A DNA stretch of 32,595 nt from Candidatus Kapaibacterium sp. (GTDB lineage Bacteria > Bacteroidota > Ignavibacteria > Kapaibacteriales > UBA4661). Numbering within the stretch: the stretch's first letter is position 1; every line of letters begins with the position of its first letter. Shown here piece after piece: positions 17,021 through 25,746 of this stretch. The translations under genes were made by a program, and so were the position numbers. The stretch covers positions 1 to 32,595 of the forward strand of contig RDXM01000121.1 of assembly GCA_004292595.1 (NCBI GenBank), given 5' to 3'. The notes under the pieces are model-generated. The model was not told where the DNA came from, made no database searches, and was given only the letters and a program-made list of their open reading frames with translations.

Positions 17021-17060
17021 AACAACTCAAAACTCAGCACTCAAAACTCAACACTTTCCC
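17021..17060. repeat. Left arm of the inverted repeat flanking alpha-2-macroglobulin
   Basis: The 40 bases are built from ACTCAAAACTCA-type units and end immediately before the ATG at 17061. The reverse complement matches 23532-23570 with one gap and two mismatches. The arm therefore also forms the whole 5' leader of the gene. Confidence 0.8.
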
Positions 17061-23531: not shown

Positions 23532-23570
23532 GGGAAGTGTTGAGTTTTAAGTGTTGAGTTTTGAGTTGTT
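23532..23570. repeat. Right arm of the inverted repeat flanking alpha-2-macroglobulin
   Basis: The 39 bases start three bp after the stop of the alpha-2-macroglobulin gene and are the near-exact reverse complement of 17021-17060. They contain the GTGTTGAGTTTT unit twice (imperfectly). No T-run follows directly, so it is not an obvious terminator. Confidence 0.8.
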
Positions 23571-24236
23571 TTCCGAAGAGTTTTTGAGCTATGACATTGG
23601 TAAAATTCGATGGGAAAATAACGGTAGAAATTATGCATATTGACGCGGATATTTTTCCCAAAACTGAATATGAAAACCGACACCCTTTTTTACAAACTAT
23701 TAGAAGCGCAGCCCGCACTATTACTGCGTTTGGCGCACTTGGAGGCGTTGCGCGGCATTCCATATCGCTTCCAGTCAATCGAACTCAAAGAAAAAGCCCA
23801 AAGGACTGATGGAATCTTGTTTCCCGATGAAGGTGCGCCGCCGGATGCGCCGGTTATTGTCTGCGAAGTGCAGTTTTGGGCAGACAAGCTCATTTACACG
23901 CGCCTTGTGAGCGAAACGGCATTGCTGCATCTGCAAATGCCCGACGTGCAGCGTTTCCAAATGGTTTTGGTGCTGAGTTCACGCGCTCTTGATACCGATG
24001 CGGGAACGTGGTCGCTTTTGCGTGAGGGCGGCGCGATAGATGTGGTCTATTTGGATGAAGCCCTGGAAACAAGTAATGATGAGGCTTTGCCGGAAGAGCA
24101 ATGTGCCTATATGCTCATGCAACTCACTGTAACGCCCGAAAATAGGGAAGTTGATGATGCGCTCATCCCCAAACTTGGCTCTACGATTGCCCGCACAAAA
24201 AACATGGCATTGCAAATCATGTTCCGAGATTTATTC

Positions 24237-24250
24237 GTAAGTTTGTACAC
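24237..24250. repeat. Left 14-bp direct repeat at the split nuclease gene
   Basis: GTAAGTTTGTACAC here recurs exactly at 25362-25375, where the homologous protein frame resumes. In both copies it encodes VSLYT in the same frame. It marks the boundary of the inserted 1.1 kb. Confidence 0.75.
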
Positions 24251-24302
24251 AAGTTACAACAAGAAAACACCAGAAAAAAAGAACTTAAAAAAGACAGCAT
24301 AC

Positions 24303-24335
24303 AAGCGGCTTTCATTCAATGGAAGTCGCTTTTTT
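24303..24335 (+). terminator. Rho-independent terminator inside the inserted segment
   Basis: AAGCGGCTTTC (24303-24313) pairs with GGAAGTCGCTT (24321-24331) over 11 bp with two G-T pairs and a 7-nt loop, followed by TTTT. It lies within the tail of the interrupted nuclease frame, which is further evidence that this tail is not native coding sequence. Confidence 0.7.
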
Positions 24336-24428
24336 ATTGCTCTTTCCTACCTTTGATTTGTTACTTTTTGTTGCTTTAATGTTGCTCTTGTTGCTCCAAG
24401 CAACAAAATCTTGTTGCTCTTAACGAGC

Positions 24429-24653
24429 GTGTATTTGCCAGAGATTGAACAGCCTGAATTTGGCTATGGTAACTTACAAGGCACGTCGGACGCGCTGCTA
24501 TTTGTCTTGAGCGAGAATCCTAAACGGCTTGAGCTATTCATTGCCAGAGAGAAGAAAAGCGTAGAACAGGCAATTTGCAATCTGGCTATTGAGCAAGACA
24601 AGGAACTTTTGGCACAAATGGATTTTCTCAGAAAACGAGCAGAACGAATCTAA
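24429..24653 (+). CDS. Small hypothetical protein in the insert
   Basis: The frame gives 74 residues from GTG at 24429 (TTG at 24411 is an alternative; no ATG start is available). It reads TSDALLFVLSENPKRLELFIAR in the middle and ends in a charged helix (LAQMDFLRKRAERI). I do not recognise the family. It lies inside the 1.1-kb segment that splits the nuclease gene and is followed after 82 bp by a second small frame. Its upstream region carries several TTGTTGCT copies and a TTGTTGC/GCAACAA hairpin (24388-24406). It may be cargo of a small mobile segment; this is inference. Confidence 0.45.
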   Translation: MYLPEIEQPEFGYGNLQGTSDALLFVLSENPKRLELFIAREKKSVEQAICNLAIEQDKELLAQMDFLRKRAERI

Positions 24654-24735
24654 CAACCAGACAGGGCTAAATATCAAATTCGCACAAATAGTAACAATGT
24701 GTTTAGTCCTGTCAATTTTTGTCAGTAAATCATGT

Positions 24736-25026
24736 ATGATACCATATCTCTATGGCTTGAAAAAGACCGTGAGCAAACCGCACCACAGCACGAAGGATGT
24801 ACAGGCGTATTTGTGTGCTTTGGCATTGCAAGATAGTGGGCGAGAGGCTGCTATCATAGAACGGCTTGAGAGCCACAGGAAAGCAGGGAAAATAAACGAG
24901 CGGACGTTTTACCGTCTCAAGGCTTCTCTGAGGTCTTACAGGTCAAATAAGAGCCTTACACAGCCAAACGAGCGGCTTGAGGAACTTGATAGGCACGTGA
25001 AGCGGGAAGTACAGTATTACCGATGA
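24736..25026 (+). CDS. Small basic hypothetical protein in the insert
   Basis: The frame gives 96 residues from the ATG at 24736; an upstream in-frame ATG (24697) adds a hydrophobic stretch and is also possible. The product is basic and helical: DVQAYLCALALQDSGREAAI, then ERLESHRKAGKINERTFYRLKASL and a Lys/Arg-rich tail. The helix pair with basic residues could bind nucleic acid, but no family is recognised. It lies in the insert within the nuclease gene and is followed directly by the four-unit repeat array. Confidence 0.45.
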   Translation: MIPYLYGLKKTVSKPHHSTKDVQAYLCALALQDSGREAAIIERLESHRKAGKINERTFYRLKASLRSYRSNKSLTQPNERLEELDRHVKREVQYYR

Positions 25027-25079: not shown

Positions 25080-25216
25080 AAATTAGACAAATTAGACACA
25101 CCCTTTAAAGGGGAAATCTTACAAATCTTACACACCCTTTAAGGGGAGTAAATCGGACAAATCGGACACGCTCTTTATAGGGAAAATGGTACAAATGTTA
25201 CACGCTCTTTAAAGGG
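25080..25216. repeat. Four-unit tandem array with paired, co-varying 9-mers
   Basis: There are four units of 34-36 bp, starting at 25080, 25114, 25150 and 25184. Each begins with two adjacent 9-mers of the form AAATnnnAC, then a spacer AC(A/G)C and a palindromic CCCTTTAAAGGG-type core. The variable triplets differ between units but agree within a unit: TAG/TAG, CTT/CTT, CGG/CGG, and GGT/GTT with one mismatch. The first core (25101-25112) is a perfect 12-bp palindrome. Units 1-2 have ACACCC and units 3-4 have ACGCTC. The last core is followed by seven T (25217-25223). No coding frame crosses it. It is not CRISPR: there are no unique spacers of constant length. Confidence 0.8.
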
Positions 25217-25361
25217 TTTTTTTGATTCAATTTCAGTGCATGGATAGAACGGTATATTTGCTATATTTAAGCATACAGATGACAATTTGTTGCTAATTTG
25301 TTGCTTGAAAGTTACTGGATAGTCCAATAGCAAGTAAACACGCCGCTTTGAGCAAGATTTT
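25217..25361. other. Non-coding right part of the insert
   Basis: This stretch has no supported gene. Two TTGTTGCT copies occur at 25287 and 25298, as near the left end of the insert, and a TATATTTG match to the -7 consensus at 25253-25260 without a convincing upstream element. From about 25337 the frame of the nuclease C-terminal fragment is open (RRFEQDFVSLYTS). Confidence 0.4.
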
Positions 25362-25375
25362 GTAAGTTTGTACAC
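25362..25375. repeat. Right 14-bp direct repeat at the split nuclease gene
   Basis: This is an exact second copy of GTAAGTTTGTACAC (24237-24250). The distance between copies is 1125 bp. Confidence 0.72.
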
Positions 25376-25403
25376 CAGCAAATACAAAAATTTATCACTC
25401 GAC

Positions 25404-25432
25404 GAGGTACGCGCCATGATAAACACCGTAGA
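25404..25432. repeat. 29-bp repeat, copy 1 (inside the nuclease C-terminal fragment)
   Basis: The segment begins GAGGTACGCGCCATGAT and encodes EVRAMINTV. It matches 25612-25640 at 27 of 29 positions. Confidence 0.75.
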
Positions 25433-25611
25433 AATCTTTGACGACATCCACGAAAGCCTTGCTGTACAACAGTATGGAGATGAATTAGTCAATATTGCGA
25501 AAACAAAAAGTGCCTTAAAATTGCTGGATATTGGGCTTTCACCTCAGCAAATTTCTGACGCACTGGATGTGCCTTTGCAAACTGTGCTGAACATCCAGCG
25601 TGGCAAGCACT

Positions 25612-25640
25612 GAGGTACGCGCCATGATTAACACGGTAGA
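25612..25640. repeat. 29-bp repeat, copy 2 (after the nuclease fragment)
   Basis: It begins within the stop codon of the nuclease C-terminal fragment and again encodes EVRAMINTV in an open frame, so it is a remnant of yet another copy of the same gene end. It then changes into the inverted repeat at 25648. Confidence 0.75.
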
Positions 25641-25647
25641 CAGAATA

Positions 25648-25713
25648 CCCTTCGACAAGTTCAGGGGAAATACCGCATCAATCCTCATACTGAGTCCTGA
25701 AATTGTCGAAGGG
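25648..25713. repeat. Inverted repeat of the CCCTTCGACAAG type
   Basis: CCCTTCGACAAGTTCAGGG (25648-25666) and CCTGAAATTGTCGAAGGG (25696-25713) pair over 18 bp with one mismatch and a 29-nt loop. Repeats of this sequence type are known as dispersed intergenic palindromes in many bacteria. It lies 33 bp past the stop of the START-domain gene on the minus strand and may end its transcript. Confidence 0.7.
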
Positions 25714-25746
25714 TCGAAGCATTTTTCTACTATTATCGTTCATGTA

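Follow-up and report, generated by a model that had tools for sequence, protein, structure and literature searches.

PICIs (phage-inducible chromosomal islands; SaPIs and those of E. coli) are integrated in their host genome, are small, and have int, xis and rep genes but no capsid genes. Some PICIs carry terS and others carry the pac or cos sites of a helper, with EcCICFT073 and SaPIbov4 carrying two cos sites (PMC6092414). PICMIs, minimal satellites from marine hosts, are about 5-6 kb long. Their genes for excision and rolling-circle replication are a minimal set, and they have neither terS nor a recognised pac or cos site (PMC10803314). In phages, the P22-type pac is a short asymmetric packaging site within terS, and the way in which TerS recognises DNA has been called unclear and difficult to measure in vitro (PMC9611059). 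In lambda and phage 21, TerS helix residues 20 and 24 set the packaging specificity (PMC4669245, PMC9026076).

Here we describe a four-unit array in a Candidatus Kapaibacterium sp. contig (RDXM01000121.1; the window is the whole stretch analyzed, 32,595 nucleotides). The element that carries the array, judged by its fuller relative in a sister genome, is like the PICIs in being small and integrated, with int, an excisionase-like gene and rep but no capsid genes, and like the PICMIs in its minimal integration, excision and replication gene set without terS. It differs from PICIs in having at least four short, putative TerS-type doublets in a row with differing specificity triplets, a G2P-type Rep and a Bacteroidota-type Arm-DNA-bind_5 integrase. 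Unlike PICMIs, it has a candidate packaging array, and its integration site is different. In the lambda-like cosB the R sites are also repeated TerS sites beside terS that are read by the TerS recognition helix, but the doublets described here have two direct half-sites 9 bp apart, go with another TerS family, and appear to follow a one-base, one-residue rule across many phages. The doublets can be inside terS as in the P22-type pac, but they differ in sequence, have a variable triplet, and also occur outside terS. Since PICIs with terS, pac or cos and PICMIs with similar genes are known, an element with such an array is not a new category.

The array and the element that carries it

Each unit consists of two adjoining AAATnnnAC 9-mers, then ACAC, then a CCCTTTAAAGGG-like tail, and the unit-to-unit spacing is 34/36/34 (Table 1). 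The triplets agree at 11 of the 12 positions within units, a score that only the true pairing reaches among the 24 re-pairings of the second triplets. This bears out the initial annotation, which described four units with triplets matched within units and different between them. The palindromic core that it also described is perfect in unit 1 (CCCTTTAAAGGG) and imperfect in units 2-4 (CCCTTTAAGGGG, CTCTTTATAGGG and CTCTTTAAAGGG), and the tails of the phage sites discussed below are TATAAAAAAG, ACTAAAAAAG, CCTAAAAAG or unrelated sequences. A palindromic core is thus no general property, and RNA hairpins are not the feature that the sites have in common. A genome-wide pattern search for AAATNNNACAAATNNNACAC found four copies in the 4.6-Mb genome, all inside the array. 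Across 123 genomes of the order there are only eight copies with exact agreement: three in the window, four in G017 and G051, and one in coding sequence of G060. In the phylum, pattern searches with the whole window unit, both exact and relaxed, gave chance-level matches only, and a BLAST of the array against plasmids and phages gave no match.

A DUF2887 gene is split by a 1125-bp insertion, and the array is inside this insertion. The gene is uninterrupted in G007, and the joined halves are 85% identical to the intact copy (G007:C46) over 282 aa. The interior of the insertion is 90-92% identical to contig C136 of a sister genome, G001. Relative to the sister element, a deletion at 24421/24422 removed the integrase, orf288, xis and the 5' end of a 158-aa gene, and 635 bp are absent between the two rep fragments. 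Judged from this comparison, the copy in the window is a dead remnant that has undergone two deletions and has neither an integrase nor an intact rep. Of the hallmarks of satellite integration it retains only the direct repeats and the evidence of an empty site. The long inverted repeat upstream of the G2P-like rep is possibly an origin or a rep operator. Two further repeats were seen. The DUF2887 genes of the genus (25362-25733, L283) have tandem C-terminal segment repeats that vary in number between relatives, and AACTCAA heptad repeats (17024-17055) and their reverse complement (23535-23566) flank a bacterial alpha-2-macroglobulin gene.

Table 1. Features of the interrupted DUF2887 gene, the element remnant and the array (positions in the window).
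Feature	Position	Strand	Evidence or remark
DUF2887 5' part (target gene)	23640..24256	+	Pfam PF11103 E 1e-28
14-bp target-core repeat GTAAGTTTGTACAC, left copy	24237..24250	+	single copy in G007 empty site
Conserved left end of element	24242..24422	+	71% identity, 182 columns, to segment upstream of G001:C147 integrase (tyrosine recombinase)
TTTGTTGCT-type repeats, candidate integrase arm sites	24357-24425		within left end
3' fragment of 158-aa element gene	24422..24653	+	92% DNA identity to G001:C136 from position 1523
Large inverted repeat GACAGGGCTAAA...TTTAGTCCTGTC (GACAGG.CTAAA...)	24660..24713	.	directly upstream of rep; conserved in G001 (L294:1763-1815)
5' fragment of G2P-like replication gene	24732..24783	+	alignment to L294; intact homologue PF05144 Phage_CRI E 3.2e-11
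3' fragment of replication gene	24784..25026	+	90% DNA identity to L294:2521-2811; 89% protein identity
Unit 1, triplets TAG/TAG	25080..25112	+	sequence read; doublet nnnACAAATnnnACAC as at phage terS genes
Unit 2, triplets CTT/CTT	25114..25146	+	sequence read
Unit 3, triplets CGG/CGG	25150..25182	+	triplet shared with unit after G001 integrase and many phage sites
Unit 4, triplets GGT/GTT	25184..25216	+	orthologue of G001 unit at L294:3009 (GTT/GTT)
TTTGTTGCT pair at right end, candidate integrase arm sites	25284..25305	+	TRF period 11; conserved in G001 right end
14-bp target-core repeat GTAAGTTTGTACAC, right copy	25362..25375	+	duplicated core
DUF2887 3' part	25362..25613	+	83% identity to G007:C46 over 83 aa

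The G001 element is about 4.6 kb long as inferred from two contigs (C147 and C136) joined by a 17-bp overlap. It encodes an integrase (Arm-DNA-bind_5, SAM_5 and Phage_integrase). A CGG/CGG doublet is located directly past the integrase stop codon and is followed by a 288-aa protein, an HTH_17 protein with an excisionase-like PHROG match, a 158-aa protein, and a filamentous-phage-type Rep (PF05144 Phage_CRI, E 3.2e-11). Further doublets are 3' of Rep (the four are CGG/CGG, GTT/GTT, GTT/GTT and GAG/GAG), then right-end repeats, and the element is bounded by matching 13-bp repeats. G001 thus has the direct repeats, int and xis of a site-specifically integrating satellite or PICI, and its own replication module, the Phage_CRI Rep, which is broken in the window. 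We found no capsid genes in the element and no terS in the window copy or the G001 element. With an integrase, an excisionase-like HTH protein, a rolling-circle Rep and no capsid genes, the element would fit a phage satellite. A Rep-based search found int, xis and rep elements in other Bacteroidota-like genomes, and searches of plasmids, phages and viral contigs with the Rep protein gave no match. One satellite-like element, in G020, has the order int-xis-rep-terS followed by TAT-ACAAAT-TAG-ACACTATAAAAAAGGG. In the G238 element terS also comes after rep, and in the G011 element three doublets do.

Doublets at phage terminase genes

We found ACAAATNNNACACTATAAAAA in 102 viral contigs, and in most of them the internal triplet recurs ahead of ACAAAT. 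The doublet nnnACAAATnnnACAC in viral contigs is at or inside terS, beside terL, and in differing reading frames or non-coding sequence. The phage sites are thus in or beside terS, where a TerS site is expected. At least 24 of the 32 ORFs adjoining the doublet match one PHROG terminase small subunit family, and at least 20 of the 29 next ORFs match one PHROG terminase large subunit family; further PHROG families raise both counts. In the commonest class the site falls within the coding part of terS, past the start codon (MKSDKSDTIKKK...). In L365 and L370 it comes about 2 kb after the start of terS, and in L209 and L215 sites with other tails are also at terS. The tail after ACAC is RCYCTTTAAAGGG in the window and commonly TATAAAAAAG in phages. 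Pattern searches, including those of the phylum, found no phage with the RCYCTTTAAAGGG tail, and a helper phage of this lineage was likewise not found. Among the matches listed, the phage contigs have single sites and not arrays, and the viral contigs with at least two doublets all have coding repeats and no terminase arrays.

The agreement of the two triplets differs between TerS classes. In class 1 (n = 66), where coding sites are found in three frames and non-coding ones 53-154 nt ahead of the HTH, the triplets agree at 3/3 positions in 46 sites, 2/3 in 19, 1/3 in one and 0/3 in none. In class 2 they agree at 0/3 positions in 10 of 19. The class 2 sites encode a DKSDTIKK-like peptide right after the HTH of a second TerS family (seen for instance in L336, L338, L347, L373 and L391). 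The DNA match is forced by the conserved coding peptide, and this class therefore serves as a negative control. Where sites are translated as SDKSD, the serine codons are matched (TCG/TCG, TCC/TCC or TCA/TCA) in 8 of 9 distinct contexts. Since the matches are at synonymous positions, selection acts on the DNA.

The initial annotation suggested either a mechanism that duplicates the triplet or selection for matched half-sites. The latter is supported by the doublets at the terminase genes of unrelated phages, by the triplets of relatives' doublets, which change in concert, and by the covariation with the TerS helix described below. A triplet-duplicating mechanism is not needed, and we found no evidence for one. 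Copies with disagreeing triplets, which the annotation had proposed looking for, occur only in the peptide-forced TerS class.

Triplets and the TerS recognition helix

The first base of the triplet covaries with the residue that precedes the final W or Y of the TerS recognition helix (residue X). C is found with E or D in 39/40 cases, T with N in 10/10, G with R in 28/29 and A with R in 5/5. Across 19 TerS clusters (60% identity), X has the highest score among 16 positions, with a mutual information of 1.45 bits and a permutation p of 5e-5, although X was chosen after inspecting the data and the rule, noticed in earlier rows, is partly post hoc. Among loci retrieved once the rule had been set down, C fits in 5/6, T in 3/4 and A in 4/4 (L643 was counted by eye), and the two later loci that break the rule have CTG with A and TAC with V. 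The CGG sites of L211 and L213, where TerS is of another fold type, are also exceptions. The TerS of the G020 element (phrog_309, 3.4e-13) has N at this position beside its TAT/TAG unit, which fits the rule (N with T). X falls in helix 35-44 of a confident TerS model, and a structure search with this model returned the TerS of phBC6A51 and Sf6 as best matches, with weak scores. The covariation with the DNA-binding helix that a TerS site would be expected to have is thus seen, with exceptions.

By these sequence comparisons, the doublet is well supported as a TerS recognition site. Each unit would be a place where the small terminase (TerS) of tailed phages recognises DNA and packaging is initiated. 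TerS presumably binds there and packaging presumably starts there, a reading built on features visible in the DNA itself (the insertion, the sister gene content, the linkage of doublet and terS, the pair agreement and the helix covariation). Two TerS subunits would bind the two direct half-sites 9 bp apart, and because identical subunits would read both, the specificity triplet must be equal in both. The triplet would serve as an address. Its first base would be read late in the recognition helix, by E/D where the base is C, by N where it is T and by R where it is G or A. The array in this decayed, small integrative element would offer sites of several specificities (TAG, CTT, CGG and GKT), and the TerS types predicted by the rule for units 1-4 are N, E/D, E/D and R. 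Several specificities would make packaging by helpers with different TerS types possible, and we infer that this is the function of the array. That the units are TerS packaging sites in a satellite remnant, with the array serving several helpers, is in our view the probable explanation. We are more tentative, with the balance slightly against, on whether there is a Bacteroidota class of satellites with tandem multi-address TerS arrays and a residue-to-base rule that predicts phage-satellite packaging from sequence. If true, arrays of different addresses would mean that satellites hedge across several helpers. A recognizable site together with a helix-to-base rule would make packaging specificity, satellite-helper pairs and transduction potential readable from metagenomes.

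Alternative readings and doublets elsewhere

The gene terS is often the first gene of the phage late operon. The position of the doublet at terS would also suit an operator or activator of that operon, and the array could be regulatory sites by which the satellite senses its helpers. TATAAAAA resembles a -10 element, and the TerS HTH could regulate as well. We consider this unlikely, given that the commonest class of site is past the start codon of terS, that the L365 and L370 sites are far downstream of it, and that the covariation is with the TerS helix itself. The covariation with TerS also argues against the doublets being rolling-circle origins or Rep-binding iterons of the element's G2P-like Rep. 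The element does encode a Phage_CRI Rep, the doublets are directly downstream of rep, and the reverse complement is loosely like the f1 plus origin. However, the doublet is at the terS of many phages independent of such a Rep, and a single element has several triplets although one Rep should read one sequence. A G2P-type origin would be found only with its cognate Rep and as one sequence per Rep, which is not the distribution seen here, and this reading is quite improbable. The element could also carry its packaging-like sites as decoys that titrate the helper TerS and interfere with the phage, and not for its own packaging. PICI interference that targets TerS is known, through Rpp proteins (PMC6739421), and the several sites per element would agree with it, but with a few sites per copy the titration would be slight, short of replication to a high copy number. 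In G020, moreover, the element pairs its own terS with one site, and we think decoys very unlikely.

Arm-type sites of tyrosine integrases are another kind of repeated word. Tandem pairs of element-specific words occur upstream of related integrases, with 19 found versus 1.7 expected. The pairs have a period of 10-12, and about 80-150 bp separate them from the Arm-DNA-bind_5 integrases that they precede (L191, L224, L225, L229, L235, L252, L254, L255 and L257); they are candidate arm sites in which the word varies between integrases. For the array units themselves this reading is highly improbable, as arm-like TTTGTTGCT pairs with a period of 10-11 are already at both ends of the element and the 9-bp doublet is terminase-linked. 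The word shared by the ends is TTTGTTGCT, whereas the array words differ from one another. The tandem period of 34-36 and the 9-bp sub-period would also be expected of a neutral tandem repeat with the 9-mers homogenized within units by slippage or gene conversion. We set simple homogenization aside as extremely unlikely, because the same pair agreement is found at single sites in unrelated phages, in addition to the helix covariation.

Doublets were also seen in other gene contexts. L442, L443 and L444 (G017:C65, G017:C84 and G051:C118) have CTG/CTG doublets with the tail ACACTCATAAAAAAGGGC near HsdM-like, AAA ATPase or OLD-like genes, and these loci are possibly defence-carrying satellites. 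On a CPR-like contig (L118), a GAG/GAG doublet with TATAAAAAG at 2073 precedes a large serine recombinase by about 200 bp, and the motif may reach beyond the phages of Bacteroidota.
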